Shown in pieces: positions 4,238 to 47,800 of a stretch of 49,261 nucleotides of DNA. Under the pieces are notes generated by a model, which made no database searches, was not told the DNA's origin, and saw only the letters and a program-made list of their open reading frames with translations. A program made the translations under genes and the position numbers. The stretch is from Prevotella sp. (GTDB lineage Bacteria > Bacteroidota > Bacteroidia > Bacteroidales > Bacteroidaceae): positions 1 through 49,261 of the forward strand of contig JAFSNG010000033.1 in NCBI GenBank assembly GCA_017447515.1, in the 5' to 3' direction. Position 1 is the stretch's first letter. The number at the start of each line of letters is the position of its first letter.

Positions 4238-4364
4238 ATGACCTATGCCGGTGGGGATCTACATTGACTTTTAAAGCGCATTTCTCCTTCAGCCTTCATG
4301 AGAGCTGGAGGAGAATTGTTTGGGGCGGCAGGAGTGACGGATAGTGCCGAAACAGCGTGACTGT

Positions 4365-4466
4365 GCCCGCCAGTTGATGGCAGCTTGCCCGCCAATCGTC
4401 GGCAGAGAGCCGGTAGTAAACTGGCAACGAGCCGGTAGCAGACTGGCAGTCGGCCAGTAGTAAACT
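4365..4466. repeat. degenerate 22-bp tandem array with palindromic units
   Basis: Units begin at 4365, 4387, 4409, 4431 and 4453 (the last is partial), exactly 22 bp apart. Each opens with GCC and closes its core with GGC. Units three and four read GCCGGTAGTAAACTGGC and GCCGGTAGCAGACTGGC, imperfect palindromes with 5-bp joints. There are no unique spacers, so it is not a CRISPR array. Because 22 is not a multiple of three and the region is intergenic, it does not encode a peptide repeat. Confidence 0.7.
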
Positions 4467-4632
4467 AAAAAAGACATAAATGACCCTTCAACCTTCACAA
4501 AATTTGTATTATCTACCTTTTAATCAAATTTTTAGCATCAAAATATATTCTTACGAACATTCATAATCCTTCATCAACCTTCACACAACCATATGGAATC
4601 AGGAAAGTCAAATACATGAAGGTTAATGAATG

Positions 4633-4668
4633 ATAAGAGGCACTTATTTTCAGATAAGTGCCTCTTAT
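4633..4668. terminator. perfect 15-bp hairpin
   Basis: ATAAGAGGCACTTAT at 4633-4647 pairs perfectly with 4654-4668 around the loop TTTCAG. The outer bases are A/T-rich on both sides, so it could terminate from either direction. It lies between hipA and the vapE-like gene and may insulate them, although 400 bp separate it from hipA. An operator role cannot be excluded. Confidence 0.5.
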
Positions 4669-4731
4669 TCAGCAATAAATGCTACTTAATGAAGGATGAA
4701 GGTTAAGTATTATGAAATAATTTGATAATTA

Positions 4732-4763
4732 TTTGGTAATATGAAAGAAATATTGTATCTTTG
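4732..4763 (+). promoter_or_regulatory. promoter of the vapE-like gene
   Basis: TTTG at 4732-4735, a 20-bp spacer and TATCTTTG at 4756-4763 match the Bacteroidota consensus. The start codon at 4784 leaves a leader of about 15 nt. Confidence 0.7.
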
Positions 4764-4783
4764 TACCCTGTTTAATCGAATAT

Positions 4784-6958: not shown

Positions 6959-7055
6959 ACAAGGGCAGATAAAACAAAAAAATTAAAAACATGTAAAATC
7001 ATCGGTCGACATTCCCACGGATGAAACGTATTAAATGGTAGTGCCTTCGTAGCCA

Positions 7056-7145
7056 TCAGAAAAAGATTTGCTCAGCGTCATCCGCACCCTCGCGGTTGTC
7101 GATGTAGTCAATCAAGATATTGGTGTCAAGAAATATCCGTTTCAT
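7056..7145 (-). pseudogene. truncated VapC-like PIN-domain toxin
   Basis: The 29-codon frame starts MKRIFLDTNILIDYIDNREG, the standard opening of a VapC PIN-domain ribonuclease with its first catalytic aspartate (LDTN), and stops after EQIFF. Full PIN toxins are about 130 residues, so at least three of the four acidic active-site residues are missing and the toxin must be inactive. Its ATG overlaps the TGA of the preceding antitoxin-like frame (ATGA), the usual TA junction. This is a relic. Confidence 0.65.
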
Positions 7146-7233
7146 CGCTCCATGATGTGTGCTAAGTGTTCATCCTGTGCCATTTCTATGGAGCCATCGG
7201 TGTTTCCTTGATTCTCTGTGCTAATGTTGTCAT
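7142..7233 (-). pseudogene. degraded antitoxin-like gene before the PIN remnant
   Basis: An ATG at 7233, correctly placed after a promoter, opens MTTLAQRIKETPMAP and then hits a stop. Another frame carries IEMAQDEHLAHIMER and ends with a TGA overlapping the PIN toxin start. The two frames are one base out of register and together would give only about 30 residues, far short of a normal antitoxin (70-90). I infer an internal deletion plus frameshift in the cognate antitoxin. Confidence 0.4.
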
Positions 7234-7260
7234 AATCCTAACATCTTTGGTTTCTGGCTG

Positions 7261-9492: not shown

Positions 9493-9513
9493 ATCTTTGT
9501 TTCCTCCCATATT

Positions 9514-16423: not shown

Positions 16424-18502
16424 ATGTCAGAGAAAAAGTTTAAGAGAACAACGGTGACCTCTGCCCTGCCCTACGCTAATGGCGGTGTACATATCGGTCA
16501 CTTGGCAGGCGTCTACGTGCCGGCAGATATCTACGTGCGCTACCTGCGCCTGAAGAAAGAAGAGGTATTGTTTATTGGCGGAAGCGACGAGCACGGTGTA
16601 CCTATTACAGTTCGTGCGCGCAAGGAGGGGGTCACCCCACAGGACGTGGTGGACCGTTATCATAAGATGATCAAGGACTCGTTTGCGGAGTTCGGCATCT
16701 CGTTTGACATTTACAGTCGCACCACAAGTGCGACCCACCATCAATTCGCCGCAGAGTGGTTCCGTAAGTTATACGACGAGGGCAAGCTGGTGGAGGAAAC
16801 TACTGAGCAGCTGTACGACGAGGAGGCGAAGCAGTTCCTGGCTGACCGTTATGTGACGGGCGAGTGCCCGCACTGTCATAACGAGGGTGCCTACGGCGAC
16901 CAGTGTGAAAAGTGCGGTCGCGACCTGAGTCCTACGGAACTCATCAATCCGAAGTCAACCATCAGTGGTTCGACACCTGTGCTGAAGAAGACGAAGAACT
17001 GGTATTTGCCGCTAAACGAATATCAGGAGTGGCTGAAGGAGTGGATTCTGGAGGGTCACAAGGAGTGGCGCCCGAATGTGTATGGACAATGCAAATCGTG
17101 GCTGGAGATGGATCTGCAGCCGCGCGCTATGACCCGCGACCTGAACTGGGGAATCCCTGTGCCTGTAGAGGGTGCTGAGGGAAAAGTGCTCTATGTATGG
17201 TTTGACGCGCCTATCGGCTATGTGTCGAACACGGTAGAACTGTGTGCGAAAGAGCCCGAGAAGTGGGGTTCGTGGCAGAAGTGGTGGCAGGACGAGGACA
17301 CGCGTCTGGTGCATTTTATCGGCAAGGACAACATCGTGTTCCACTGCATCATCTTCCCCGTGATGATGAAGGCGCACGGCAAGTACATCATGCCTGACAA
17401 CGTACCCAGCAACGAGTTTCTGAACTTGGAAAACGACAAGATTTCAACCTCGCGCAACTGGGCTGTATGGCTGCACGAATACCTCGTAGACATGCCTGGC
17501 AAACAGGACGTGCTGCGCTATGTGCTGACGGCCAATGCGCCTGAGACCAAGGACAACAACTTCACGTGGAAAGACTTTCAAGACCGCAATAACAACGAGC
17601 TGGTAGCCGTTTACGGTAACTTTGTAAATCGCGCCTTGCAGTTGACGAAGAAATACTGGGACGGCGTGGTGCCGGCCTGTGGTGAACTGACGGACGTAGA
17701 CAAGGCTGCTCTGAAGGAGTTCAAGGACGTGAAGCAGAAGGTGGAATCGCTGCTCGACCAGTTTAAGTTCCGCGACGCTCAGTTTGAGGCCATGAACCTG
17801 GCACGTATCGGTAACCGTTATATCACGGAGTGCGAGCCTTGGAAGGTGTGGAAGACAGACCAGAAGCGTTGCGAAACCATTCTGAACATCTGCTTGCAGC
17901 TGACGGCCAACCTGGCTATTGCCTTCGAACCGTTCCTGCCGTTCTCAAGCAAGAAACTGCGCGAGATGCTGAATATGGACTCGTTCGAATGGGACCAGTT
18001 GGGAAGCACCGACCTGCTGAAGGCCGGTCACAAGCTGGGCGAGGCATCGTTGCTGTTTGAGAAGATTGAGGACGAAACCATCCAGAAACAGTTGGACAAG
18101 CTGGAGGCCACGAAGAAGGCCAACCAGGCTGCCGCTGCTGCTGCCGAAGCAGAGCCCGCCGCCATCAAGCCCACCGTAAGTTTTGACGACTTCGAAAAGT
18201 TGGACATCCGTGTAGGACTCATCAAGGACTGCCAGCGTGTGCCGAAGAGCAAGAAGCTGTTGCAGTTCACTATCGATGACGGCACAGGTACCGACCGTAC
18301 CATCCTCAGCGGTATTGCTGCGTTCTACGAAGACCCCAGCGTCTTGGTGGGCAAACGCATCCTCTTTGTGGCCAACTTCGAGCCGCGCAAGATGATGGGT
18401 ATCGAGAGTCAGGGCATGATTCTCTCGGCTGTTGACTTCGACGAGAGCCTCAGTGTAGTGACAACGACGAAGGACGTGAAACCAGGAAGCCAAGTTGGTT
18501 AA
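16424..18502 (+). CDS. metG: methionyl-tRNA synthetase with C-terminal tRNA-binding domain
   Basis: 692 residues, close to E. coli MetG (677). It charges tRNA-Met in the cytoplasm. Visible motifs: [14 protein letters not shown] (class I HIGH signature, near residue 15), a zinc-knuckle [18 protein letters not shown] (near 147), [14 protein letters not shown] (the KMSKS loop, here KISTS, near 340), and an anticodon-binding helical domain. The last 110 residues are the EMAP/Trbp111-like dimerising tRNA-binding domain ([20 protein letters not shown]). The domains are joined by an alanine-rich linker. The stop codon lies within a heptad repeat (18497-18524) that fills the gap to the next gene. Confidence 0.97.
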
Positions 18503-18524
18503 AGGTTAATGGTTAAAGGTTAAA
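18497..18524 (+). repeat. four 7-bp repeats (GGTTAAA) between metG and the next gene
   Basis: GGTTAAA, GGTTAAT, GGTTAAA, GGTTAAA run without a break from 18497 to 18524. The first unit contains the metG stop codon, and the array ends 3 bp before the next ATG (18528), so it takes up the whole ribosome-binding region. Confidence 0.85.
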
Positions 18525-18527
18525 GAG

Positions 18528-20390
18528 ATGCAGGCGATTATATTAGCAGCGGGAATGGGTCGCAGATTAGGCGACTATACGAAGAACAATACAAAATGTA
18601 TGGTTCCAGTAAATGGTGTGCGACTCATCGACCGTCTGTTAGGCCAGTTGGCCAAGCAGCAGCTAAGCCGCATCATCATCGTCGTGGGATATAAGGGTAA
18701 GGAACTGCGCGAATATATTGAGAAGACATACCTCTCACCTCATACCTCTCACCTCTCACCTCTGAACATTGAATTTGCCGAGAACCCCGTCTACGACAAG
18801 ACCAACAACATCTATTCGCTGGCACTGGTGAAGGACAAGTTGCAGGAGGATGACACGCTGCTTATTGAGAGCGACCTCATTTTCAGCGACCGCATCATCC
18901 CGATGATAGCGGACAACCCCCACCCCAACCTCGCACTCGTGGCTAAATACGAGACGTGGATGGACGGCACAATGGTGCGGTTGGATGACGAGCAGAACAT
19001 CGTGAACTTCATCTCAAAGGATGCGTTCGACTATAACGAGGTGGGCTCGTACTACAAGACGGTGAACATCTACAAGTTGTCGAAGGAGTTCTCGCAGCAA
19101 AAGTACGTGCCGTTCCTCGACGCTTATACGAAGGCCGTAGGCAACAACGAATACTACGAGAACGTGTTGCGCATCATATCGCTATTGAATAACCACGACA
19201 TGAAGGCATTGCCCATCGGACAGGAGAAGTGGTACGAGATTGACGACAAGCAAGACCTCGACATTGCCGAAGCACTGTTTGCCGACGAGCAGGACGTGTT
19301 GCGCAAATACTACGGTCGTTATGGCGGATTCTGGCGATTCCCACAAATGCTCGACTATTGCTACTTGGTGAATCCCTATTTCCCCAGTCGCAGGTTGAAG
19401 GACGAACTACGTGCCAACTTCGACACGCTGCTGACGGAATATCCCTCGGGCATGAAGGTAAACACGCTGATTGCCAGCAAAAGTTTTGGCGTGAGCGAAG
19501 AGTATATCGTGCCAGGCAACGGTGCCGCAGAATTGATTAAGATTCTGATGGAAGACGCTTCAGACCTCAGACCTCAGACCTCAGACTTCAAAATAGGTTT
19601 CATCCGTCCGACATTTGAGGAATATCCCAACCGATATGACAAGGACGCGCAGGTGACTTTCGTGCCTGAGGACGAGGACTACCGCTACAGTGCCGACGAC
19701 CTGATGGCATTCTTTGACGACAAGGACATCAAGCAGTTGATGGTCATCAACCCCGATAATCCCTCGGGCAACTTCATTCCCAAGAGCGACATCCTGCGCT
19801 TGGCGCAATGGTGCGAGGAACGTGCTATCCGCCTGGTGGTCGATGAGTCGTTCGTGGACTTCAGCGAGGACTATGCCACGAATTCGTTGTTGAGCGATGA
19901 GATACTCGAAGCTTATCCCCACATGGCGGTGATGAAGAGCATCTCGAAGAGTTTTGGTGTGCCGGGCTTGCGTCTGGGCATTCTCTGTTCTGCGGACAAG
20001 GGCCTTATTGCGCGCATCAAGAAAGAGGTGAGCATCTGGAATCTCAACTCGTTTGCCGAGTTCTTCATGCAGATTTACAACAAGCACGAGAAGGACTACC
20101 AGCGCGCCTGCGCAAAGTTCGTGGCAGAGCGTGCCGATTTCGAGCGCCAGTTGCGCACCGTTCCTTATCTGCGTGTGATGCCAACTCAGGCAAACTACTT
20201 CCTCTGCGAGGTTTTGCCTCCTTACAAAGCCAGCGAGATAGTCATCTATATGCTCAAGCAGCACAACATCCTGACACGCGACTGCAGTCTGAAGCCAGGT
20301 CTCGACCCCAAGAAGCAGTATATGCGCATTGCCGTTCGCAACCATAAGGACAACACCCGACTCATTGAAGGACTCAAAACACTAAAATAG
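18528..20390 (+). CDS. fusion of a LicC-like nucleotidyltransferase and a CobD/HisC-like aminotransferase
   Basis: 620 residues in two domains. Residues 1-245 are a sugar-phosphate/choline-phosphate nucleotidyltransferase: AIILAAGMGRRLGDYTKNN is the NTP-binding loop, NPVYDKTNNIYSLA and LLIESDLIF fit LicC-type CTP:phosphocholine cytidylyltransferases. Residues 260-620 are a fold-type I PLP enzyme with PGNGAAELIKIL, VINPDNPSGNF, VVDESFVDF and SISKSFGVPGLRLG (the PLP lysine), closest in feel to CobD threonine-phosphate decarboxylase or HisC. I infer that one domain makes a phospho-amino alcohol and the other activates it with CTP. An ornithine-cyclodeaminase-like gene follows after 4 bp and a licD gene converges beyond. 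Two heptad arrays lie inside the gene, in segments that look like surface loops. Confidence 0.8.
   Translation: MQAIILAAGMGRRLGDYTKNNTKCMVPVNGVRLIDRLLGQLAKQQLSRIIIVVGYKGKELREYIEKTYLSPHTSHLSPLNIEFAENPVYDKTNNIYSLALVKDKLQEDDTLLIESDLIFSDRIIPMIADNPHPNLALVAKYETWMDGTMVRLDDEQNIVNFISKDAFDYNEVGSYYKTVNIYKLSKEFSQQKYVPFLDAYTKAVGNNEYYENVLRIISLLNNHDMKALPIGQEKWYEIDDKQDLDIAEALFADEQDVLRKYYGRYGGFWRFPQMLDYCYLVNPYFPSRRLKDELRANFDTLLTEYPSGMKVNTLIASKSFGVSEEYIVPGNGAAELIKILMEDASDLRPQTSDFKIGFIRPTFEEYPNRYDKDAQVTFVPEDEDYRYSADDLMAFFDDKDIKQLMVINPDNPSGNFIPKSDILRLAQWCEERAIRLVVDESFVDFSEDYATNSLLSDEILEAYPHMAVMKSISKSFGVPGLRLGILCSADKGLIARIKKEVSIWNLNSFAEFFMQIYNKHEKDYQRACAKFVAERADFERQLRTVPYLRVMPTQANYFLCEVLPPYKASEIVIYMLKQHNILTRDCSLKPGLDPKKQYMRIAVRNHKDNTRLIEGLKTLK
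18730..18764 (+). repeat. five 7-bp repeats (ACCTCTC) inside the nucleotidyltransferase domain
   Basis: Units at 18730, 18737, 18744, 18751 and 18758 read ACCTCTC, ACCTCAT, ACCTCTC, ACCTCTC, ACCTCTG. They encode the segment YLSPHTSHLSPLN, which looks like an insertion between the helix after VVGYKGKELREYIEK and the strand IEFAENP. Confidence 0.85.
19561..19588 (+). repeat. four 7-bp repeats (CAGACCT) inside the aminotransferase domain
   Basis: CAGACCT three times then CAGACTT, at 19561, 19568, 19575 and 19582. They encode ASDLRPQTSDFK between a helix (AAELIKILMED) and a strand (IGFIRPTFEEY), a likely loop. Confidence 0.85.
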
Positions 20391-27132: not shown

Positions 27133-28285
27133 AGGTGAGCATAGCATTCTTAATCTTCTTTACAACGAGCCAAGGCAGGAGCATAAAGGCTGCAAGGGCT
27201 GCGAAATGGAACCACGCCTCAATAAGCGGGAATCCGTTGAAGACACAAATTTGATAAATCATGTAGTAATGACGCAGCGGGAACAGCCACGACAACGACT
27301 GCAACGCACCGTCCATACCCATAACAGGGAAAGCAGAGCCGGCCATCGAGATGCTAAGCACCGCCCACAGCGAACAGACACTCATCGACATACGCAGTGA
27401 AGGCATCAGTCCGAAGGCGAAGATGCCAAAGCCCTGACAGGCAAGCACCTGCATCAGGCCGAGCAGAACCAACATCCAAGGACTACCCAGATGCGGGAAC
27501 TGCAACACGTAGAACACATAGTATTCATAGCCGTAAACAATAGCCAACCAGATGAGCATCTGCGGCAGGAATTTACCCAGCAGTGCCGTCATGATATGGT
27601 TATCGGCCATTTCCAACCAGCGTTTCGACGAACCGAACTTCAGTTCCGCACCTAACGAATAGGCCGAGATGAGGAAGATAAACAGCATAATCATGCCCGG
27701 CACAATCATCGTCGAGAGGTAGGCGTTATAGCTGGTCCAAGGATTGGCAATCTGGTGCAAGTCCACCTTAACAGGTTGCAGGAATGCCTGAATCTGGCGG
27801 TCGGTATAACCTTTGGCACGCATGGTTGCCTGTCCTACAGCAGCAGAGCCCAACGTGGAGATGGTCTTCAAATCCTTCATCAACAAAGCACCAGCAGCCA
27901 GCGTCGTATAGGAATAATAATAGGAGATTTTCGGTTGACGCGAAGCCATCAGCTTTTCCGTCGTACCTTTCGGAATATAGAGAAATCCGTAGATTTCGTT
28001 GCGTTGGATGGCCTTGCGCGCCTCTGTAACATTGGGATAATGAGCAACGATACGCGACATCTGGAAACCGTCCAGTCGTTGCGACAGCGAACGCGACGTC
28101 GAAGTATTGTCCAAGTCAACGATGCCAACTGGCATACTCGTAGGCAGACCGTCATCCATCAGTGAGGTGAAGAAGAAAATCACCACCACAGGGAAGAGTA
28201 CCATGCAGAAGCGATAGATGTGATTCTTGCGCAGAATCAACAACTCTCGCATCATGATTTCGTATATCTGCCTCAGCCTTTCCAA
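27116..28285 (-). CDS. ABC-2 type transporter permease (first of two)
   Basis: About 389 residues with the same layout as its downstream partner: IYEIMMRELLILRKNHIYRF then FPVVVIFFFTSLMDDGLPTS, a periplasmic domain, and C-terminal helices with GFGIFAFGLMPSLRMSMSVC and SGSAFPVMGMDG-like sequence (AGSAFPVMGMDG). No ATG stands at the full-length start: the frame opens with TTG at 28285, which lies in a heptad repeat. ATGs at 28255 and 28252 would delete about ten residues of the N-terminal helix conserved with the partner. No ATPase gene lies in the cluster. Confidence 0.83.
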   Translation of the reverse strand: MERLRQIYEIMMRELLILRKNHIYRFCMVLFPVVVIFFFTSLMDDGLPTSMPVGIVDLDNTSTSRSLSQRLDGFQMSRIVAHYPNVTEARKAIQRNEIYGFLYIPKGTTEKLMASRQPKISYYYSYTTLAAGALLMKDLKTISTLGSAAVGQATMRAKGYTDRQIQAFLQPVKVDLHQIANPWTSYNAYLSTMIVPGMIMLFIFLISAYSLGAELKFGSSKRWLEMADNHIMTALLGKFLPQMLIWLAIVYGYEYYVFYVLQFPHLGSPWMLVLLGLMQVLACQGFGIFAFGLMPSLRMSMSVCSLWAVLSISMAGSAFPVMGMDGALQSLSWLFPLRHYYMIYQICVFNGFPLIEAWFHFAALAAFMLLPWLVVKKIKNAMLTYVYIP

Positions 28286-28303
28286 TTGTCAATTATCAAT
28301 TAT
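28283..28303 (-). repeat. three 7-bp repeats (CAATTAT) between hlyD-like and permease genes
   Basis: CAATTGT, CAATTAT, CAATTAT at 28283, 28290 and 28297 fill the 14-bp gap. The array holds both the HlyD stop codon (28300-28302) and the possible TTG start of the permease (28285). Confidence 0.75.
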
Positions 28304-29289
28304 TTCACGATAAGTGACATCCCCGGACGCAAGCCGTCGAACTTCTCCGTCGGACGGGCTCTGACCTCGAAGGTCTTCAGGTCATACTGGCCATTGGCCT
28401 TGGTGGCCTTCCAAACAGCATACGAACCCTGGTCCTTCATATAATAGACTTTCATTTCTACCTCTTTACTAAAAGCAGGCACAAAAGCCTTGAAAGTCTT
28501 TCCGACCTCCATGCCATTCAGCTGGTCTTCACGAACATTGAAAGAGCCCCACATATCCTGCATCATCGAGATGGTCATAATAGGTGAACCAGTTCCCACC
28601 AGTTCTCCTACCTTTGGATAGATACTGCTAACTTCACCCTCCATCTGAGCAATTTGTACAGTCTCGTGAATATAGCTGTTTACCTCTTGCACAGCACCGC
28701 GAGCGCGTCCTACCTGAGCGGCAGCAGCCAGCTTATCCTCACGGCGAGCACCGTTCTGAGCCATCTGATACTGACTCTCGGCAGCCTTACACTGCGCCTC
28801 CATAGCCTTGAAGTTAGCATACACCTCATCACGCTTCTGGGCCGATACCACACCTTCGTCGAACAGACGCTGGATGCGTTGATACGACTTCTCGGCAATC
28901 TCCAGTCCTGCCTTAGCCTGTTGCCACACTTGGTAAGCACCTTGGATTTGCTCCTGACGCGCACCGTTTTGTGCCTTCAATTCCAATGCCGCAGCGGCAT
29001 TCTCCGCGCTCTGAGCCTGTTCCATCTTAGCACGGACTTCCGGGGCATCCAGAATGGCCAGCGTATCACCAACCTTGACATAGTCGCCTTCCTTTACTCT
29101 GATTTCCAAAATACGTCCGGGAACCTTACTCGATACGCGGTATTCGCTGACTTCCACCTGTCCCTGAATCAGTTCAGGGTCACGTCCCAATGCAAAGAAA
29201 CCTATTAGGGCCACGATAATGACGACCACTGCAAATCCTAGGATTGCAAACAGAATATTATTATGTTGTTCTTTAGCCTGGTTTGACAT
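28300..29289 (-). CDS. HlyD/EmrA-type membrane fusion protein
   Basis: 329 residues. One N-terminal membrane anchor (FAILGFAVVVIIVALIGFFA), then a lipoyl-like half (VSSKVPGRILEIRVKEGDYV, KVGDTLAILDAPEVRAKMEQ), a coiled-coil hairpin (about 85-200, with AQNGARQEQIQGAYQ and its echo AQNGARREDKLAAAA), the second lipoyl half (GEVSSIYPKVGELVGTGSP) and a beta-barrel. It links inner-membrane pump to outer-membrane channel. The neighbours, TolC upstream and two ABC-2 permeases downstream, make this a tripartite exporter. Spacing to TolC is 67 bp and includes a heptad array. Confidence 0.9.
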   Translation of the reverse strand: MSNQAKEQHNNILFAILGFAVVVIIVALIGFFALGRDPELIQGQVEVSEYRVSSKVPGRILEIRVKEGDYVKVGDTLAILDAPEVRAKMEQAQSAENAAAALELKAQNGARQEQIQGAYQVWQQAKAGLEIAEKSYQRIQRLFDEGVVSAQKRDEVYANFKAMEAQCKAAESQYQMAQNGARREDKLAAAAQVGRARGAVQEVNSYIHETVQIAQMEGEVSSIYPKVGELVGTGSPIMTISMMQDMWGSFNVREDQLNGMEVGKTFKAFVPAFSKEVEMKVYYMKDQGSYAVWKATKANGQYDLKTFEVRARPTEKFDGLRPGMSLIVK

Positions 29290-29299: not shown

Positions 29300-29320
29300 A
29301 CTTTAAACTTTCTACTTTCT
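29300..29320 (-). repeat. three 7-bp repeats (ACTTTCT) between TolC and HlyD genes
   Basis: ACTTTAA, ACTTTCT, ACTTTCT at 29300, 29307 and 29314, directly upstream of the HlyD start codon (29289) in the minus direction. It lies where a ribosome-binding site would be. Confidence 0.7.
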
Positions 29321-29356
29321 AATCGTTTCTTTAGTACGCTTGCCTTAGCAAGAACT

Positions 29357-32159: not shown

Positions 32160-33812
32160 ATGAATGATTTACTTTTAAACATCGACGCCGGCTCCATCAA
32201 CTGGGCAAGAGCACAATTCGCACTGACAGCCATCTACCATTGGCTGTTCGTTCCGCTGACCCTCGGACTGGCTGTCATCATGGGTATCTGCGAGACCATC
32301 TGGTATCGCAAGCGTGACGTCTTCTGGCGTAACTGCGCAAAGTTCTGGCAAAAACTCTTCGGCATCAATTTCGCCATGGGTGTTGCCACAGGTATCATCC
32401 TTGAGTTTGAGTTCGGCACCAACTGGTCGAACTACTCTTGGTTCGTAGGCGATATCTTCGGCGCACCACTGGCCGTCGAGGGCATCGTGGCATTCTTTAT
32501 GGAATCCACCTTCGTGGCCGTGATGTTCTTCGGATGGAAAAAGGTCTCTCCCGGCTTCCACCTCGCCTCTACGTGGCTCACAGGCTTGGGCGCAACGATT
32601 TCCGCGTGGTGGATTCTGGTGGCCAACGCCTGGATGCAGTATCCCGTTGGCTGCGAGTTCAATCCTGACACCATGCGCAACGAGATGGTATCGTTCTTCG
32701 ACGTGGCCCTCTCGCCGTTTGCCATCGACAAGTTCTGCCATACGGTCATCTCCGCCTGGATCATCGGAGCCATCTTCGTCGTAGCCGTTTCGTGCTGGTA
32801 TCTCATGCAGAAACGCGAGACGAAACTGGCCATTGAGAGCATCAAGATTGGTGCCATCGTAGGACTCATCGCCTCGCTGGGTGCTGCCATGACGGGACAT
32901 AAGTCGGCACAGAGCGTTGCCGAGGTTCAGCCCATGAAACTGGCAGCTATGGAGGCACTCTACAATGGCGGCACCGACGTTGGTCTCACCGCTGTGGCTT
33001 GGGTGAATCCCTTCGTCCAGCCCGACTATCTGAGTGAAGAGTCCGCTCCGCTGAAGATTGAGATGCCTTACGCACTGTCGTTCATGGCTACTAACGACAT
33101 CCACGGCTACGTGCCTGGCATCAACGACATCCTCAATGGCTACACGAAGCCCGATGGCACACGCGAGCCGTCCGTTGACGAGAAGATAGCGCGCGGCAAA
33201 CAGGCCATCAGCGCCCTTGCTGCCTACCGCAAGGCAAAGAGCGAAGGTGCCGACGAAGCCACGCTGAACGCTCAACTCACGACAATAAAAGAGAACATGC
33301 CTTACTTCGGTTATGGTTACGTCAAGGACAAGGCCGACCTCGTGCCTTACGTCCCTGTCAATTTCTGGGCATTCCGCATCATGGTGGGACTGGGCTGCAT
33401 CTTCATCCTCTACTTTGCCATCCTACTGCTCATGACCGTCCGCATCCCTTGGCTGTCAGCCATCACCCGACGACTGCTGGCCATCGTCTGCATACTGCCA
33501 GAGACGGAAGCCGACGACCGCTGCACCATCGCGACACTGCCAAAATGGCATTATTGGGTACCTATCATCCTTGTGCCGCTGGCCTATATCGCCTCCGAGA
33601 GCGGCTGGCTGGTAGCTGAGTTCGGTCGTCAGCCCTGGACCATTCAGGACATGCTTCCCACATGGGTAGGCGTCAGCGACGTCGACGGTTTCAGCGTCGC
33701 GCTGACGTTCATCCTCTTCCTTATCCTCTTCACCACCATGCTGGCCGTCGAAATCAGCATCATGCTGAAGCAGATCAAAAAGGGGCCGGAATCTTCTTCT
33801 AACTCCCTCTAA
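32160..33812 (+). CDS. cydA: cytochrome bd ubiquinol oxidase subunit I
   Basis: 550 residues with nine or so membrane helices. FALTAIYHWLFVPLTLGLAV carries the N-terminal haem-ligand His, GINFAMGVATGIILEFEFGT and FMESTFVAVMFFGW are conserved, and NFWAFRIMVGLGC holds the haem b558 Met. The periplasmic Q-loop region (about 270-390) differs from that of E. coli and includes a charged helical stretch. It reduces oxygen to water with quinol at high affinity, useful for an anaerobe facing traces of oxygen. Paired with cydB 30 bp downstream. The last codons (SSSNSL) run into a repeat array at 33801-33840. Confidence 0.95.
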   Translation: MNDLLLNIDAGSINWARAQFALTAIYHWLFVPLTLGLAVIMGICETIWYRKRDVFWRNCAKFWQKLFGINFAMGVATGIILEFEFGTNWSNYSWFVGDIFGAPLAVEGIVAFFMESTFVAVMFFGWKKVSPGFHLASTWLTGLGATISAWWILVANAWMQYPVGCEFNPDTMRNEMVSFFDVALSPFAIDKFCHTVISAWIIGAIFVVAVSCWYLMQKRETKLAIESIKIGAIVGLIASLGAAMTGHKSAQSVAEVQPMKLAAMEALYNGGTDVGLTAVAWVNPFVQPDYLSEESAPLKIEMPYALSFMATNDIHGYVPGINDILNGYTKPDGTREPSVDEKIARGKQAISALAAYRKAKSEGADEATLNAQLTTIKENMPYFGYGYVKDKADLVPYVPVNFWAFRIMVGLGCIFILYFAILLLMTVRIPWLSAITRRLLAIVCILPETEADDRCTIATLPKWHYWVPIILVPLAYIASESGWLVAEFGRQPWTIQDMLPTWVGVSDVDGFSVALTFILFLILFTTMLAVEISIMLKQIKKGPESSSNSL

Positions 33813-33840
33813 CTTCTTCTAACTACTTTAACTACTTGAT
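33801..33840 (+). repeat. short direct repeats of about 10 bp between cydA and cydB
   Basis: AACTCCCTCT, AACTTCTTCT, AACTACTTTA and ACTACTTGAT follow each other at 10-bp spacing from 33801. The array contains the cydA stop codon (33810-33812) and reaches to 3 bp before the cydB ATG. It is related in placement to the 7-bp arrays, but its period is longer. Confidence 0.65.
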
Positions 33841-41864: not shown

Positions 41865-43907
41865 ATGAAGAATTATTGGCTGTTGGCTGTTGGCTGTTGC
41901 TTGTTAGCACTCATGACTGGTTGCACGAGTGCTGATCAGGCCGTGAAGAAGGGTGATAAGTTCTACGCCCTGGGCGAATATTTTGATGCTGCCAACCAAT
42001 ACAAGAAGGCCTATTCGCAGACACCGCCCAAGCAGCGCGCCCAGCGTGGACAGCGGGCATTGAAGATGGCCGAATGCTATCGGCGCATCAACTATACGCA
42101 GAAGGCTATTGCTGCTTACAACAATGCCATCCGCTATAAGCAGGAGGACTCGCTGATGCACCTGTATCTGGGTCAGCAACTGATGAAAAACGGCAGTTAC
42201 AAGGAAGCCGCCAAGGCATTCCAAACATTCTTGGACTCGGCAGGGAATTATAAATTCACGGATTCAGAGAATTATGAACTGCTGGCTCGCACGGGACTGC
42301 GCTCAGCAAAGCTGGCTCCAGCGTGGAAGCAGGAGGGCTCGGCCTATACCGTCAAGCGCGAGAATTTTTTCAATTCGCGACGGGCCGAGTATTCTCCCAT
42401 GTTGGCTGGCGAAGAGAACAACCAGCTGTTCTTCACCTCCACACGTAATCAGGCCAAAGGCGACGATTTGAGCGGTATCACAGGAACCAAGAACGGCGAT
42501 ATCTTTATGTCGCAAAAAGACGATAAAGGCAAGTGGCAACGACCGGAAGTCATCGACAGCGAACTGAATTCGGAGTTCGACGAGGGTGCCTGCTCGTTTA
42601 CGCCTGACGGTCGGACGATGTATCTGACCCAGTGTAAGACCGACCCCGACTACCCGCGCTATGCCATCATTGCCACATCGAGCCGCAGTGATGCATCCTG
42701 GAGCAAACCTACGGAACTGAAACTGACCAACGACACATTGTCGGCCTACGCCCACCCTGCCGTTTCGCCTGACGGAGAGTGGCTCTACTTCACCAGCAAT
42801 ATGCCTGGCGGGCAGGGCGGTTACGACATTTGGCGTGTGCGCCTGACCACCAGCGGTTTGGGCGGTGTCGAGAATCTGGGTGCCCCCATCAACACGCCTG
42901 GCGACGAGATGTTCCCGACGTTCCGACCCAATGGCGACCTCTACTTCTCGTCGGACGGCCACGAGGGCTTGGGTGGACTGGACATCTATATTGCCAAACC
43001 TACTGAGAATCACGACAATATTTCGGAAACCTCACAACTCTACGAGCTGGAGCATCCTGGCTATCCGCTGAACTCGCAAGGCGACGACTTCGGAATGACC
43101 TTCGAAGGACTGAACAATCAAGGATTTTTCTCGTCGAATCGCGGCGACGGCAAAGGCTGGGACCACATCTACTCGTTCTACAACCCCGAAATCATTCAGA
43201 CGGTGACGGGCTGGGTATACGAACAGGACGGCTACGAGCTGCCTGCAGGTCAAGTATATATGGTGGGCAACGACGGCACAAACCTCAAACTGAGCGTCAA
43301 GGGCGACGGTTCGTTTACCCAACAGATCAAGCCGGGCGTGGATTACGTGTTCTTAGGAACGTGTAAGGGTTTCCTGAATCACCAGGAACAGTTGCGCGTA
43401 GAGCCTGTGACGGAATCGGAGGACTACGTCTTGCAGTTCCCGTTGGCTAACATTATGGCACCCGTGCTGATTGACAACATCTTCTACGATTTCGACAAGG
43501 CCACGCTGCGCCCGGAATCGGCAGCAGCACTGGACGATTTGGTCAAATTGCTGAACGAGAATCCCAATATCACCATTGAACTCTCGGCACATACCGACTA
43601 CAAGGGTTCGGCAGAGTATAACAAACGCCTGAGCCAGCGCCGTGCGGAGTCGGTGGTGAACTATCTGATAGAGCACGGTATTGCGGCAGACCGTCTGACA
43701 CCAGTGGGTTACGGCAAGGAGAACCCCAAGAAGATTCGCAGGAAGGTGGCAGAGAAGTATCCTTTCCTAAAAGAAAACGACGTCTTGACGGAAGAATTCA
43801 TCAAGACGCTGGAGAACGAGGAACAGCAGGAGGAATGCAACCAGCTGAACCGTCGTACGGAGTTTAAGGTGCTGAGAACTACCTACGGGCTCTTTCCGAA
43901 GAAATAA
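41865..43907 (+). CDS. OmpA-family lipoprotein with TPR and PD40 repeats (PorE-like)
   Basis: 680 residues from ATG 41865; the GTG at 41841 overlaps the topB stop and would leave the signal peptide inside. Signal peptide ends LMTGC (lipobox). Residues 25-140 have TPR-like repeats (YFDAANQYKKAY, KAIAAYNNAIRY). Residues 170-420 form a PD40-like propeller (SPMLAGEENNQLFFTSTRNQ; DIWRVRLTTSGLGGVENLG; GGLDIYIAKP). A carboxypeptidase-regulatory-like domain follows, and the OmpA domain ends it (NIFYDFDKATLRPESAAALD, LSQRRAESVVNYL). This is the layout of PorE of the type IX secretion system, anchoring to peptidoglycan. PD40-OmpA proteins of other roles look similar. A heptad array encodes part of the signal peptide. 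Confidence 0.82.
   Translation: MKNYWLLAVGCCLLALMTGCTSADQAVKKGDKFYALGEYFDAANQYKKAYSQTPPKQRAQRGQRALKMAECYRRINYTQKAIAAYNNAIRYKQEDSLMHLYLGQQLMKNGSYKEAAKAFQTFLDSAGNYKFTDSENYELLARTGLRSAKLAPAWKQEGSAYTVKRENFFNSRRAEYSPMLAGEENNQLFFTSTRNQAKGDDLSGITGTKNGDIFMSQKDDKGKWQRPEVIDSELNSEFDEGACSFTPDGRTMYLTQCKTDPDYPRYAIIATSSRSDASWSKPTELKLTNDTLSAYAHPAVSPDGEWLYFTSNMPGGQGGYDIWRVRLTTSGLGGVENLGAPINTPGDEMFPTFRPNGDLYFSSDGHEGLGGLDIYIAKPTENHDNISETSQLYELEHPGYPLNSQGDDFGMTFEGLNNQGFFSSNRGDGKGWDHIYSFYNPEIIQTVTGWVYEQDGYELPAGQVYMVGNDGTNLKLSVKGDGSFTQQIKPGVDYVFLGTCKGFLNHQEQLRVEPVTESEDYVLQFPLANIMAPVLIDNIFYDFDKATLRPESAAALDDLVKLLNENPNITIELSAHTDYKGSAEYNKRLSQRRAESVVNYLIEHGIAADRLTPVGYGKENPKKIRRKVAEKYPFLKENDVLTEEFIKTLENEEQQEECNQLNRRTEFKVLRTTYGLFPKK
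41876..41903 (+). repeat. four 7-bp repeats (TTGGCTG) within a signal peptide
   Basis: TTGGCTG at 41876, 41883 and 41890, then TTGCTTG at 41897. Because 7 is not a multiple of 3 the encoded residues differ between units: WLLAVGCCLLA. They make up much of the hydrophobic core of the lipoprotein signal peptide. Confidence 0.8.
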
Positions 43908-44241
43908 CCTCCCCCGCACCCACCAGCAATAATCCGAAAACGACAGAGAATATCATCATCAGATTGATGCTGAACGATTGTGTAGCCAATGTACGCAACA
44001 TCACTTCGAAGTGTACAGCCAGCAATTCCCATCCGCGGAACACAATGAACAACACCACGAAAGTAGTGATGCAGAAGACGCTCCACAGACGGTTAAACGT
44101 CTGAAGTCTGACGTTTGAGGTCTGAAGCTTACCTTCGGCCTCAATGCGTTGCATCACGCGCTCCGTGAATCCGTTGTCGTCTATCTGCTGACGGGCAGCG
44201 TCGCTGAAAAACTGCTGTAGCAAGCGTTCGTTATCTTCCAT
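43879..44241 (-). CDS. DUF5056-like membrane protein, downstream of ECF sigma factor
   Basis: About 120 residues from ATG 44241 (MEDNERLLQQFFSDAARQQI). An acidic N-terminal helix of the form DDNGFTERVMQRIE, a linker built from heptad repeats, and two membrane helices (FCITTFVVLFIVF; INLMMIFSVVFGLLLVGAG). I recognise DUF5056. It follows the ECF sigma gene with an 11-20-bp overlap, the usual place for an anti-sigma or small membrane partner; that role is inferred. Its stop runs 29 bp into the end of the convergent OmpA gene. Confidence 0.7.
   Translation of the reverse strand: MEDNERLLQQFFSDAARQQIDDNGFTERVMQRIEAEGKLQTSNVRLQTFNRLWSVFCITTFVVLFIVFRGWELLAVHFEVMLRTLATQSFSINLMMIFSVVFGLLLVGAGEVISSERARR
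44092..44126 (-). repeat. five 7-bp repeats (GTCTGAA) in the DUF5056-like gene
   Basis: On the plus strand: GTTAAAC, GTCTGAA, GTCTGAC, GTTTGAG, GTCTGAA at 44092, 44099, 44106, 44113 and 44120. They encode KLQTSNVRLQTFNRL in the linker between the N-terminal helix and the first membrane helix. The word is close to the CAGACCT word at 19561 (on the other strand). Confidence 0.8.
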
Positions 44242-44773
44242 CATATCCATTCTTTCTTAAATAGTTAACTAATTTCTCTTTGCCTCTGGACAGGTGTGAC
44301 TTCACCGTGCCTTCTTTGAGGCCTGTAATCTTGGCAACACCTGCAATGTCATATCCGTCAATGAGTTGCAGGGTGATACATGTGCGTTCGTCTGGTTTCA
44401 ATAGCGCCAAAGCAGCGTAGAGGTCCATTTTTAATGGCTGTTGGCTATTGGCTGTTGGCTGTTGGCTTTCTGCTAATTGCCAATCGCTAACCGCTAACTG
44501 CCGTTTGCGCGTATAATCGTAAAACACGTTGTAGGCAATGCGCATAATCCACGTTTGGAAGGAGGCCAGCCCACGGAAAGAGACAATATTCGTATAGGCT
44601 TTGAGAAACGTGTCCTGAGCCAGATCTTCGCTCAACTGACTATCGCCCAACGTTTGATGCAGGAAAAACCTGCGAACGGGTGACTGATACCGGCGCACGA
44701 GCTCGTCGAAAGCCCGTCGATTGCCCGATATAGCCACCTGCGCAACGAGGGAGATGTCAGTAAGGGAAGCCAT
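44231..44773 (-). CDS. ECF-type RNA polymerase sigma factor
   Basis: 180 residues. Region 2: NRRAFDELVRRYQSPVRRFF, LSEDLAQDTFLKAYTNI and FQTWIMRIAYNVFYDYTR (-10 recognition). Region 4: ALLKPDERTCITLQLIDG and ITGLKEGTVKSHLSRGKEKL (helix-turn-helix for -35). The linker between them (QLAVSDWQLAESQQPTANSQ) is encoded by ten heptad repeats. It follows PspC without any gap (TAA then ATG) and precedes a DUF5056-type membrane protein. The operon of head-GIN, PspC and sigma factor points to envelope stress. Confidence 0.92.
   Translation of the reverse strand: MASLTDISLVAQVAISGNRRAFDELVRRYQSPVRRFFLHQTLGDSQLSEDLAQDTFLKAYTNIVSFRGLASFQTWIMRIAYNVFYDYTRKRQLAVSDWQLAESQQPTANSQQPLKMDLYAALALLKPDERTCITLQLIDGYDIAGVAKITGLKEGTVKSHLSRGKEKLVNYLRKNGYDGR
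44435..44505 (-). repeat. ten 7-bp repeats in the sigma factor linker
   Basis: On the plus strand five TGGCTGT-type units (44435, 44442, 44449, 44456, 44463: TGGCTGT, TGGCTAT, TGGCTGT, TGGCTGT, TGGCTTT), a 1-bp break, then TGCTAAT, TGCCAAT, CGCTAAC, CGCTAAC, TGCCGTT from 44471. The first word is the same as TTGGCTG in the OmpA gene at 41876, rotated. The two words are related by few changes. Confidence 0.85.
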
Positions 44774-44974
44774 TTACTGTCGTGTCAAAGCATTTTTCTC
44801 AGGAATGATGATCCACGCTACGATGTAGAAGGGAATGCCTGCGAAAGCTGTGAACAGCGTCAAAGCGGCGTAACCCAAACGTACTGCAACTGGGTCGAAA
44901 TCCATATACTCTGCAAATCCTGCGCAGACGCCGCCCAATACGCGGTCGTTGCTGCGTTGTAGTTTCTTAGTCAT
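44774..44974 (-). CDS. PspC-domain membrane protein
   Basis: 66 residues. KKLQRSNDRVLGGVCAGFAE, YMDFDPVAVRLGYAALTLFT and GIPFYIVAWIIIPEKN are the standard PspC domain, with one or two membrane helices. PspC proteins sense or buffer inner-membrane stress. Its stop is directly followed by the sigma factor ATG, so the two are tightly coupled. It follows the DUF6249-like gene by 12 bp. Confidence 0.93.
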   Translation of the reverse strand: MTKKLQRSNDRVLGGVCAGFAEYMDFDPVAVRLGYAALTLFTAFAGIPFYIVAWIIIPEKNALTRQ

Positions 44975-44986
44975 AATCTTTATTGT

Positions 44987-45691
44987 TTAAATGTTGTTGT
45001 TATCGTTTTTGTATAAATCTCTGTCGTTGTTTCTGCGAGCCGTGCGCGAGGCGAACACCTTACCCAGTCCGATGCAGAACACCAGTGCGCCGATGCCGAA
45101 GCCGACCTGTCCGGCTGCATAGCCCAGGAATATCATCAAGCCCACACCTACGAAACACTGACGCATTCCCTTCTGATATTCATTGTCACTGTCTATCGGC
45201 TTGTCTTCCAACAACTGGTCGGGAATGGGCTGACCCTGTTGCATAGCCATCTGTGCGAGTTTCATCTTCTGCTTGCGGTTCTTGTTGATGAAGTAGAACA
45301 GCGCAATGATAATCACTAACGGAGCCAGTACGAAAAGAATGAGCAGGACACCCAGCACGAAGAACATACCTGTTACGTCTTTAGCATCCATATTACTGAA
45401 CACGTGGTGCATCATGCTTCCAAAGTCTTCGTCGTCAACCTCATAGGTCGTCGAATTGCTACTCCAGGGAGAGGTCGGATAAGTGACGGTAACTGTCCCC
45501 TTATGCTTCGTGACTGATGATGTAGCTGTTGCCGTATCCATACTCGTCGTATCGGAATAAACCTCTACAGCATCCTTGCTCGTCGAGTCCACCAGTTCGC
45601 TCTGTGGTGTGTGACGGTGCTTCTGAGCTGCTGCCTGTGCGCCCATTCCGAGCGTCAGCAGCATGGCCAATGTTATTAGAACCTTTTTCAT
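44987..45691 (-). CDS. membrane protein with signal peptide, DUF6249-like
   Basis: About 234 residues from ATG 45691 (MKKVLITLAMLLTLGMGAQA). A periplasmic Ser/Thr-rich stretch with many Asp follows, then a membrane helix (FFVLGVLLILFVLAPLVIII), a basic cytoplasmic loop (NKNRKQKMKLAQMAMQQGQP) and two more helices (VGLMIFLGYAAGQVGFGIGA). I think it is DUF6249-like, but am not sure. It sits between a head-GIN lipoprotein and PspC in the presumed stress operon. The longer frame to 45730 overlaps the previous gene's end and lacks a signal peptide start. Confidence 0.65.
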   Translation of the reverse strand: MKKVLITLAMLLTLGMGAQAAAQKHRHTPQSELVDSTSKDAVEVYSDTTSMDTATATSSVTKHKGTVTVTYPTSPWSSNSTTYEVDDEDFGSMMHHVFSNMDAKDVTGMFFVLGVLLILFVLAPLVIIIALFYFINKNRKQKMKLAQMAMQQGQPIPDQLLEDKPIDSDNEYQKGMRQCFVGVGLMIFLGYAAGQVGFGIGALVFCIGLGKVFASRTARRNNDRDLYKNDNNNI

Positions 45692-45719
45692 ATTCTTTGT
45701 TGTTTTGGTATTTATCGTT

Positions 45720-46427
45720 TTACTTTCCAATAGTTAGGCCTGAAGTATTCATATCGCCAGACCCGCGAACATTATACTTATAGTCTTTGACGTTGCCAGA
45801 GAGCGTAATGTCGCCAGAGCCTATCACGTTGGCATCCACAGCACCGCTGTCGTCAAGCCTCATCTTGACATCGCCAGAGCCAACGAGTTGCACGCCAGCC
45901 CACTGGGTCTTCACATGTTTCACATCTACGTCACCAGAACCCACCAGCGACACATTGACGCGGTCGCAAATGATGTCGTCGAACTTGATGTCACCTGAGC
46001 CGCTCAGCGTGATATCGAGGTTGTCGGTATCAACGAGACCGTTACTCTCGAAGTCGCCAGAGCCCTTCAGTTCAATGCCGAGAAAATCGGGAGAGGTCAC
46101 AAAGACCGTAACATCGTCAGCATCAGACACGCCTAGGTTGATGATATTACCTTCACCCTTCATTTTAACCACCAGCTTGTTGCCGGTCACATAAGTCTCT
46201 ACGTCGTTGAGAACCTTTACGGGAGCATCAACGCGAACAGAGAACGAGTCGGCTTGAGCGTACTTTACGTCTAACGAACCCAGCAGTTCTACGCGCTCAA
46301 AGCCCTTCAAATCACGTTCATGCACTCCGTGCGGATCGGTTTTGGAGTAATGCACCTTCAATCCGCTACATGCACAGGATGTCAACATCCCCAGAGTCAC
46401 AACTGATAATAATAAAAACTTTTTCAT
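45720..46427 (-). CDS. DUF2807 head-GIN lipoprotein
   Basis: 235 residues with a lipobox in MLTSCACSG. The mature part is a right-handed beta-helix of the head-GIN (DUF2807) type: VELLGSLDVKYAQADSFSVR, then repeating LKGSGDFES, LSGSGDIKF, LVGSGDVDV, LVGSGDVKM, VIGSGDITL and VRGSGDMNT at about 20-residue steps, each GSGD at a turn. Such proteins face the periplasm or outer membrane. First gene of the operon with DUF6249-like, PspC, sigma factor and DUF5056; I infer a role in envelope homeostasis. Confidence 0.9.
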   Translation of the reverse strand: MKKFLLLSVVTLGMLTSCACSGLKVHYSKTDPHGVHERDLKGFERVELLGSLDVKYAQADSFSVRVDAPVKVLNDVETYVTGNKLVVKMKGEGNIINLGVSDADDVTVFVTSPDFLGIELKGSGDFESNGLVDTDNLDITLSGSGDIKFDDIICDRVNVSLVGSGDVDVKHVKTQWAGVQLVGSGDVKMRLDDSGAVDANVIGSGDITLSGNVKDYKYNVRGSGDMNTSGLTIGK

Positions 46428-46486
46428 AACTTCGTCGTTTTTGTTTCTTTTTTATCCGTTAGACGTAATAAATCCATAATTAGTTG

Positions 46487-46518
46487 CAAAGGTACGAAAA
46501 AAATTGTATCTTTGCAAA
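46487..46518 (-). promoter_or_regulatory. promoter of the head-GIN/PspC/sigma operon
   Basis: On the minus strand, TTTG at 46518-46515, a 20-bp spacer and TACCTTTG at 46494-46487. Its -33 directly abuts the -7 of the divergent methyltransferase promoter (46507-46514), so the two promoters overlap. Confidence 0.65.
46507..46514 (+). promoter_or_regulatory. -7 promoter element of the methyltransferase-thyA-folA operon
   Basis: TATCTTTG fits TAnnTTTG, with GTTG (three of four) 20 bp upstream at 46483-46486. The ATG at 46523 lies 8 bp downstream, so the message would be almost leaderless. This rules out the longer in-frame start at 46484. Confidence 0.55.
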
Positions 46519-46522
46519 CGAA

Positions 46523-47800
46523 ATGGCAAATTTACCTGCGGAATTCACCGAATACACGCGCCAATTGATGGGCGAGGAGCGCTTCGGACGATACCTGAAA
46601 TCGTTTGAAGAAGAGCCTCCTGTGAGCATCCGACCGAACCCGATGAAGATAAAAACGGACAGATGGCAGGTGGTTGATGCAGAGCCTGTGCCTTGGTGCA
46701 GGAATGCCTACTATTTGAAGAAGCGTCCCAATTTTACCTTTGACCCATTGTTCCATGCAGGTTGTTACTACGTGCAGGAAGCCGCGTCGATGTTCCTCGA
46801 CGAGGTATTGCGCCAATCTCTCACCTCTCACCTCTTCTCTGCCAAGCAGAGTGTGGCGTTGCGAATCCCTCTCACCTCTTTGGACCTCTGTGCTGCCCCT
46901 GGTGGCAAGTCTACCCTACTCCGCTCGGCATTGCCTGATGACTGCGTGCTCTATTCCAACGAGCCCATCCGCAATCGCGCGAACATTTTATTAGAAAACG
47001 TCACCAAATGGGGCTATCCAAACCACTACGTCACCAATGTTTATCCTGAGGCTTATCGTAAGTCGAAGATGAAGTTCGACGTCATTCTCTGCGACGTCCC
47101 CTGCTCTGGTGAAGGGATGTTCCGCAAGGACGAAGCGACCATCCATGAGTGGAGCCCCCAACAGGTAGAAAAGTGCTGGCAACTGCAACGGGACATCATG
47201 ACGGACGCGTGGGCTTGTCTGAACGACGGAGGCCTCTTTATTTATAGTACGTGTACCTTTAACACAAAGGAAAACGAGGAGAATATCCGTTGGATGTTAG
47301 AGACCTTCGAAGACGCTAACGTACTGGAAATCAATACAAAACCAGAGTGGAATATCACTGGTTCCCTGCTCGAAGGATTCCGCGAACCTGTCTATCGTTT
47401 CATTCCTGGCGTCTCGCGTAGTGAAGGTCTCTTTGTTTGCGTCATACGCAAAGGAAGCAGACTGGCAATCCCCAAGGAGCAAACTAAAAATTCCCATGCT
47501 GGGAACAAAAGATTCCCACGGAGGGAACAATCCATTCCCACGCTGGGAACAATTGCCCTGCACGTAGACGGTCCCCAGGTTGAGCTAACCTACCAGCAGG
47601 CAATGGCGTACCTGCGCCACGAAGCACTCGTACTACCCGAGGACACACCGCGCGGATTGGTCAACGTCGCTTTCCAGGGCTTCCCTCTTGGTCCTGCCAA
47701 AAACATCGGCCCGCGCGCCAACAACCTCTACCCCAAAGAATGGAAAATCAAAACGACACATATACCCAACGATTACGAACCCATACTTAAACGATTATGA
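46523..47800 (+). CDS. rRNA m5C methyltransferase (RsmF/RsmB-like)
   Basis: 425 residues. It has the SAM motif [39 protein letters not shown] (motif IV with the catalytic Cys) and [16 protein letters not shown] (motif VI with the second Cys), and an N-terminal [20 protein letters not shown]. It methylates a cytosine in 16S rRNA; the C-terminal PUA-like region and length resemble RsmF. Two kinds of repeats disrupt it: heptads (46818-46882) in a segment before the SAM motif and a 22-bp palindromic array (47469-47556) in the linker after the catalytic domain. The frame is kept through both. The ATG 46523 fits the promoter. It overlaps thyA by 4 bp. Confidence 0.88.
46818..46882 (+). repeat. 7-bp repeats (CTCTCAC) in two places in the methyltransferase gene
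   Basis: CTCTCAC at 46818 and 46825 then CTCTTCT at 46832; and CTCTCAC at 46869 followed by CTCTTTG at 46876. The word is identical (by rotation) to ACCTCTC at 18730 in an unrelated gene. They encode SLTSHLFSA and PLTSL, in a stretch that looks inserted between [13 protein letters not shown] and LDLCAAPGG. Confidence 0.75.
47469..47556 (+). repeat. 22-bp palindromic array in the methyltransferase gene
   Basis: Three clear units begin at 47491, 47513 and 47535. Each is a palindrome TTCCCAnnnTGGGAA, or close to it (unit two has CGGAG in the middle), plus a 7-bp joint. A decayed copy (TCCCCAAGGAG core) precedes at 47469. It encodes [20 protein letters not shown], a flexible linker. Unit length and palindrome plan match the intergenic array at 4365-4466, but the sequence differs. 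Confidence 0.85.

Follow-up and report, generated by a model that had tools for sequence, protein, structure and literature searches.

Dispersed heptad arrays of about 32 nucleotides in Prevotella, possibly maintained by copying or in-place rewriting

The stretch of DNA considered here, hereafter the window, comprises 49,261 nucleotides (nt) from Prevotella sp. (assembly GCA_017447515.1, contig JAFSNG010000033.1), i.e. contig 70 in a 78-contig genome that is 61% complete and is designated G000 below, and it carries short tandem arrays of 7-base words both between and within genes. Within the plasmid collection, the product of its cydA gene comes nearest to Prevotella nigrescens, with 66% identity. 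The heptad arrays favour one size, share words of a limited chemistry across loci and species, turn over at given sites, and can differ in word at one and the same site without differing in length. They are tentatively read as the dispersed members of one family spread through the genus, which copying or rewriting in place would maintain where local slippage alone would not suffice, a reading to which slightly less than an even chance is given (probability of about 0.45). A first-pass annotation of the window, made from the letters and the open reading frames, had noticed the arrays and suggested a process writing or copying 7-bp units. What it observed stands as regards the period-7 excess, whereas the unit counts and the unrelatedness of the words have to be corrected; as for its interpretation, a copying or rewriting process does fit better, whereas the unrelated words and the lack of precedent are not supported.

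Regarding periodicity, exact match runs of at least 10 number five at period 7 in the window against none or one at every other period from 2 to 13. In the own-genome sample (the window plus 20 stretches, 388,494 bases), 85 sites hold at least two exact period-7 copies against 20 in order-2 Markov controls, which keep the trinucleotide make-up and not the codons, and 17 period-7 runs reach at least 12 against 0.3 expected. This sample was partly picked for arrays (stretches in contigs 3, 7, 9, 24, 27, 32 and 78 were already known for TTGGCTG arrays, and several G009 and G007 stretches for arrays), and its unpicked part of 200,962 bases (201 kb) contains 37 two-copy sites versus 15 in the control and five runs of at least 12 versus none. 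Among relatives sampled at 200 kb each, such runs amount to 22 in G241, 15 in G009, 10 in G394, 8 in G007 and 5 in G303, where an equal number occurs at period 9, and to none in G016. In 720 unpicked kb of G277, runs of at least 12 count eight at period 7, six at period 11, five at period 9 and two at period 8, one control giving none, and the 388-kb own-genome sample is also in excess at periods 6, 8 and 9. The comparison with controls that the annotation had called for, here run on sampled stretches, thus returns an excess in the own genome, G241, G009, G394, G007 and G277, a tie with period 9 in G303, and nothing in G016: period 7 leads, clearly in most genomes, yet not alone. The excess is also present when only unpicked stretches of G000, G241, G303, G394 and G277 are taken, G303 again showing as much at period 9. 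As in the heptanucleotide simple repeats described elsewhere, tandem 7-base units exceed chance.

Chance alone yields a quarter to two fifths of the doublets counted, as judged from the own-genome controls, so that single doublets prove little. Several sites listed at first as arrays belong there, namely 4286, 4485 and 34987, which are 13-base doublets only, and 4690, a 14-base doublet; the longest exact array of the window reaches 3.9 copies, short of the 2-10 uninterrupted units announced. In all six genomes considered, arrays are rarer in long open reading frames than random positions would be, the share lying within frames of 200 or more codons being 21 of 30 in G000, 10 of 14 in G394 and 2 of 20 in G009.

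The arrays have a preferred length. Across seven genomes, 44 of the 112 arrays measure 30-34 nt, whereas the neighbouring classes of 25-29 and 35-39 nt hold 11 and 17 (p 2e-6), and 13 are longer than 60 nt; in unpicked stretches the corresponding figures are 23 of 62 against 8 and 9 (p 0.002). No clear length peak appears among period-8 (n=23) or period-9 (n=25) arrays. Many elements can be read as five 4-base boxes joined by four 3-base linkers, e.g. CTCT-cac, AATT-atc, AACT-atg, CAGC-taa or CTCA-aac, the commonest form being about 31-32 nt long, or some 4.5 turns of the 7-base word. The ends are also preferred: 39 of 97 ACCTCTC arrays finish on the same base and 33 start on the same base, versus about 14 if uniform, in a set that includes GTDB loci and counts at least one locus twice. 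Among the GTDB matches listed, ACCTCTC arrays of 30-34 nt make up 15 of 43 in Prevotella/Bacteroidales and 4 of 15 in the remaining Bacteroidota, falling to 1 of 18 beyond that phylum (p 0.024 between the first and the last, three unlabelled loci being dropped).

Whereas each site had been credited with an unrelated word, TTGGCTG is common to 41876 and 44435, and ACCTCTC (in rotation) to 18730, 46818 and 46869. Such sharing extends well beyond the window. In all samples (six genomes, 112 arrays), same-word pairs number 295 out of 6216 against 24 (maximum 39) for letter-shuffled words; in unpicked stretches pooled from G000, G241, G303, G394 and G277 (61 arrays), they number 96 out of 1830 against a mean of 8 and a maximum of 19 in 300 letter-shuffled sets. 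Since G241, G303 and G394 were selected for many ACCTCTC matches, the share of that word is inflated in these tests; once it is removed from the unpicked stretches, 30 pairs remain against 4 (maximum 9). The 24-base pattern of ACCTCTC arrays, ACCTCTCACCTCTCACCTC, was matched in 118 of the 398 genomes of the genus (taken broadly as Prevotella, one genome per species), with up to 87 matches per genome. Its backward control is rare, and the genomes that do contain it may use it as an array word in its own right. At least 118 stretches of the GTDB contig collection carry the ACCTCTC pattern, and among the 80 matches listed more than half come from Prevotella, Prevotellaceae or Bacteroidales, many of them from the rumen, along with other Bacteroidota, Verrucomicrobia, Chloroflexi and others.

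The word chemistry is narrow. All 115 array words sampled have at most one G on one strand, as compared with 71% of random 7-mers, and 71% of them are G-free on one strand versus 25%; TCA is present in 54% versus 19%, and CpG in 3% versus 41%. Within genes, by reasoning and not by count, TCA-containing words would be expected in one orientation only, because the other gives stop codons.

Turnover at fixed places was followed at two arrays of one NTP-transferase/aminotransferase fusion gene, sites A and B (Table 1). Of the 126 genomes in which the gene was matched, 30 were read, tracts being tested for periodicity with 500 shuffles each, here as in the RsmF loop below. At site B, 10 species carry an array, 16 are empty, one has a single copy and three hold an inverted-repeat element instead. 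Nine of the 10 arrays are exactly 24 nt longer than the empty form, in spite of words of the CAGACCT, TCAAACC, TCAAACA, GCCAAAA and CAGCCCT kinds, and the tenth, ACCTCTC in G100, is a further 9 nt longer; of 15 tracts tested, the ten arrays exceed all shuffles and the five others do not. Site A, for which 12 of the 30 were tested, shows ACCTCTC in four species, TCAARCC in one, CCAACAG in one, a GCTAAC-type tract in ten, a degenerate tract in three and none in eleven. In a gene tree from which both sites had been removed, array state varies even among close relatives, e.g. G261 and G305 (support 0.92) or G093, G338 and G086 (0.94), the other branches being weak.

A loop of the RsmF-like methyltransferase, read in 30 of 50 genomes with a match, gives a comparable picture: clear arrays in six species (G000, G254, G344, G338, G302 and G047) with four word types, the CATCAGC type in eight, eroded 7-periodic tracts in three, and other inserts or short loops in 13, several with inverted repeats. 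ACCTCTC, TTCACTC, CAATTGT, TCAACTC and CATCAGC are thus all found at this one place, besides the eroded tracts. Of 11 tracts tested, nine exceed the shuffles (five clear arrays, a single CATCAGC-type tract and all three eroded ones), those of G045 and G231 do not, and the loop measures 69 alike in G254, G007, G407, G093 and G047 with different words or erosion. In the PorE signal peptide, read in 30 of 118 genomes with a match, TTGGCTG-like units were recognized by eye in about nine species, and the distance from start to lipobox is 60 nt in the four counted (G000, G210, G086 and G007).

The comparison of orthologous loci, another check proposed at the outset, therefore finds that arrays are not unchanged at the same places in relatives. 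G007 illustrates this further, with a degenerate tract at the 18497 site, a tract 17 nt longer at 28284 with five boxes readable by eye, a longer version of the period-10 array at the cydA stop, a gap-free alignment without a clean array at 41876, and no element at 44436. As to the contention that coding arrays keep the frame and fall in loops, linkers or a signal peptide, the open frames hold; of the two arrays compared with solved homologues, that of site B (19561) falls in an alignment gap and that of RsmF (46818) in or beside one, and loop tolerance can accordingly explain where arrays survive. Like Rickettsia palindromic elements, heptad arrays are thus inserted in frame in unrelated genes. 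Of note, array-bearing loops hold inverted-repeat elements in other species (loci L250, L254 and L265 at site B; L300, L306, L307 and others in the RsmF loop), so that small repeats of different kinds concentrate in these loops.

The words carried at site B can be set against those used elsewhere in the same genomes. TCAAACC arrays are present in nine of the 30 species. Four species have a word of the TCAAAC type at site B, in one case as a single copy, and all of them belong to these nine (126/27405, post hoc). Arrays of GCCAAHA are commonest in G305, G270 and G369, and both G305 and G369 carry that word at site B; the word counts for G093, G192 and G369 include site B itself. In all samples, words are shared within genomes beyond their sharing between genomes (p 0.008).

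From these observations, a sequence of events can be proposed. An element would arise or insert once in a tolerant site, between genes or within one, and its word would later be exchanged, without change of place, for one that the genome uses at other loci. The route could be a short-patch, template-directed process between arrays, that is ectopic gene conversion or annealing of array single strands, while slippage would change the unit number outside genes and selection would retain only in-frame results within them, the surviving in-gene elements lying in frame where the protein tolerates them, be it in loops, at a junction or in a signal peptide. A constant length with a changed word is hard to reach by slippage in a reading frame, because steps of 7 bases break the frame; rewriting from other arrays would explain it together with the shared words.

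Several points weigh against this scheme. No rewriting event was observed among genomes sampled at one per species, and genes could be exchanged between species. Within-genome word sharing reaches only p 0.11 once the stretches picked for arrays are excluded, so that genome-preferred words rest on the post hoc TCAAACC and GCCAAHA counts. Besides, the CAGACCT array at site B of G000 and G261 has no other copy of its pattern in those two genomes, G100, the richest in TCAAACC, has ACCTCTC at both sites A and B, and G270, though rich in GCCAAHA, has an empty site B. The 30-34 nt class leaves out the majority of arrays (68 of 112), boxes were in part assigned by eye, and some genomes show an excess over the controls at periods 8, 9 and 11 as well. 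Finally, copying of whole tracts is not shown, because the order of unit variants is not clearly shared under an unbiased choice of pairs: block copying gave z up to 4.7 in a first test, for which pairs had been picked by observed identity, and z 1.7 within genomes (12 of 200 nulls reach it) and 2.1 between genomes with pairs picked by word alone, and is not claimed.

The most serious rival, to which something under one chance in three may be granted, is ordinary polymerase slippage with a built-in 7-base step, arrays growing locally from chance A-B-A seeds and words looking alike since only certain G-poor words expand. A heptamer excess is known from many bacteria and has been tied to polymerase slippage (Mrazek 2007, via citing papers); the box-linker form A(BA)n would follow from the expansion of any such seed, the recurrence of words could stem from their narrow chemistry, no clear copying of unit order is seen, and unpicked stretches give little sign of sharing within genomes. 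A single CCTCTCA also stands in G007 at the place of a G000 array. The length peak, on the other hand, is not predicted by slippage, nor are the length differences from G007 at four in-gene sites (0, 9, 24 and 30), net steps of 7 being expected, and letter-shuffled words of the same make-up share far less than the real ones. The assertion that random slippage is insufficient is in this sense upheld, local slippage alone poorly explaining that words are shared, that lengths near 32 nt are preferred and that one loop can hold different words while its length stays the same. As for a replication-strand bias, none was seen in G277, the C-rich strand of the arrays lying on both strands in both skew halves (7 to 9 and 7 to 6).

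A true mobile element of about 32 nt, with a transposase-like enzyme, preferred targets and repeated independent insertion into the same loops, is improbable. The preferred size and ends, the empty sites in relatives and the presence of unrelated inverted-repeat elements in the same loops would suit it. Independent insertions would not readily give nine of ten site-B arrays equal in length despite different words, however, and no target duplications were noticed in the alignments, which involved no dedicated test for them. Furthermore, Y1 transposases (Y1_Tnp) are found in 10 of 20 array-rich and 11 of 20 array-poor genomes, array-poor meaning zero ACCTCTC matches with other words left uncounted.

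Less probable by far is a telomerase-like reverse transcriptase of the DRT10 type, whose A-B-A' template would make tandem-repeat DNA that is then built into the genome. DRT10 does make tandem-repeat cDNA (excerpts of PMC12632851), and the first and last boxes of an element are often identical, as would be expected from repeat addition on an A-B-A' template. In the same two sets of genomes, RVT_1 occurs in 9 of 20 array-rich against 11 of 20 array-poor ones, very divergent reverse transcriptases possibly being missed; the richest genome, G241 (99% complete), is without RVT_1 at E 1e-5, and many words per genome would need many templates. RVT_1 was likewise not found at E 1e-5 in the incomplete G000, a repeat-templating RNA not having been sought. 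Neither the reverse transcriptase nor the Y1 transposase could thus be retained as a writer, no association with array load being seen for either. In passing, two adjacent reverse-transcriptase genes were observed in G344 contig 22, G041 contig 135 and G088 contig 1, an arrangement known from paired defence systems. Lastly, an assembly or binning artefact, which the fragmented and incomplete genome of the window could suggest, is hardly credible given the same kind of arrays in G277 (two contigs, the main one of 3.56 Mb) and ACCTCTC matches in the single-contig G129.

The arrays of the window are compiled in Table 1, where the period-10 array placed at 33801 and the array at 18497 by the first-pass annotation are both found as such.

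Table 1. Tandem arrays of the window, with their position, strand and context.
Position	Strand	Array	Context
18497..18525	+	GGTTAAA-type, four boxes, 29 bases	Spans the stop codon of methionyl-tRNA synthetase (metG, 16424-18502) and the gap to the next start
18732..18763	+	Site A, five-box 32-nt element ACCTCTC	In frame in NTP-transferase/aminotransferase fusion gene; periodic 21/25, 0/500 shuffles
19559..19590	+	Site B, five-box 32-nt element CAGACCT	In frame in the same gene; periodic 23/25
28284..28301	-	Three AATT boxes (CAATTAT/CAATTGT)	Junction of gene 27116-28285 and efflux adaptor 28300-29289
29300..29321	-	Short ACTTTCT array	Between efflux genes
33796..33837	+	Period-10 array CTTCTAACTA	Across the cydA stop
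41876..41907	+	TTGGCTG element	Signal peptide of PorE-family gene
44100..44124	.	Imperfect four-box array GTCTGAA	-
44436..44467	.	Five-box TTGGCTG element (GGCT boxes)	Sigma-factor gene (44231-44773, minus strand)
44472..44503	.	Second, imperfect five-box tract (GCYA boxes)	Inverted relative to the 44436 element; read by eye
46818..46835	+	Three CTCTCAC boxes	RsmF-like methyltransferase gene (46484-47800); in or beside alignment gap of solved homologue
46869..46879	+	Two more CTCTCAC boxes	33 bases beyond the first three; five boxes together

The RsmF array is split into three and two boxes by the 33-base stretch 46836-46868, which apparently contains an inverted repeat. Arrays of the TTGGCTG family are at times paired in inverted orientation with a short spacer, as read by eye in the window (44436-44503) and at L021 (14256-14330) and L020 (13309-13392). 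Unrelated to the heptads, arrays of 22-bp units lie at 4364-4466, 47482-47552 and 47768-47811, and at 2933-6958 a HipA-like gene adjoins a VapE/BT4734-like gene, with CCTTCA/TGAAGG doublets in the gap between them.

The supposition that no described element behaves in this way does not hold for heptamers as such, since heptanucleotides reportedly outnumber the other long simple repeats in the majority of surveyed genomes, with slippage proposed as their origin (Mrazek 2007, as cited in PMC4679880 and PMC4692102); the abundance is alike here, and that survey, as cited, treats the repeats as slippage products. Closer parallels are the tandem heptanucleotides of Calothrix and Nostoc and the GGGAATC repeats of Xanthomonas, which are likewise dispersed tandem 7-base words whose length varies between relatives. 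According to the excerpts of the same source (PMC4692102), however, the Xanthomonas and Nostoc heptamers are G-rich, of one word type per genome and intergenic, with 2-26 units in Xanthomonas, whereas the Prevotella arrays use many G-poor words, prefer a size near 32 nt and frequently lie inside genes. The TAACTGA repeats of Beggiatoaceae, Cyanobacteria and some Bacteroidetes are also dispersed 7-base direct repeats, with mobility suspected and no mechanism given; as excerpted, they are confined to one word with few related heptamers, and lie for the most part in intergenic DNA upstream of start codons (PMC4679880), whereas several related words coexist in Prevotella and sit in protein loops. 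TAACTGA itself is not among the words recorded in the sampled stretches of seven genomes. The Rickettsia palindromic elements, short repeats in frame in many unrelated genes, are described in the excerpted text as about 150 bp long and palindromic, with a conserved peptide (PMC10969869), in contrast to direct heptad repeats of about 32 nt, whose peptide varies with the word and which form inverted pairs at some places only (44436-44503). No report of heptad arrays in Prevotella was found in the Creative Commons-licensed PubMed Central (PMC) text searched, which does not establish their absence in print, and a combination of multiple words, a preferred size of 32 nt and in-gene turnover appears nowhere in the excerpts of PMC4692102, PMC4679880, PMC10969869 and PMC12632851. 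In view of these excerpts, the size preference, the mixed words and the in-gene turnover look new, the heptamer excess being already known (PMC4692102, PMC4679880).

If the words are indeed rewritten from other arrays, this would be bacterial concerted evolution acting on scattered 32-nt tracts in protein genes, and the rewriting would both diversify loops and allow the spread of short repeats without a known transposase to be studied. A bolder version of the idea, namely a genome-wide writing system in Prevotella for heptad elements of about 32 nt, relying on an enzyme or a single-stranded DNA route, a per-genome stock of G-poor words and in-place rewriting at constant length in working frames, is unlikely at present; were it true, such a system would lead to concerted evolution of scattered loci and to rapid remodelling of protein loops. 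Because these loops can be compared, in their various states, across the hundreds of species in the genus, the old question of why heptamers dominate bacterial simple repeats becomes testable.

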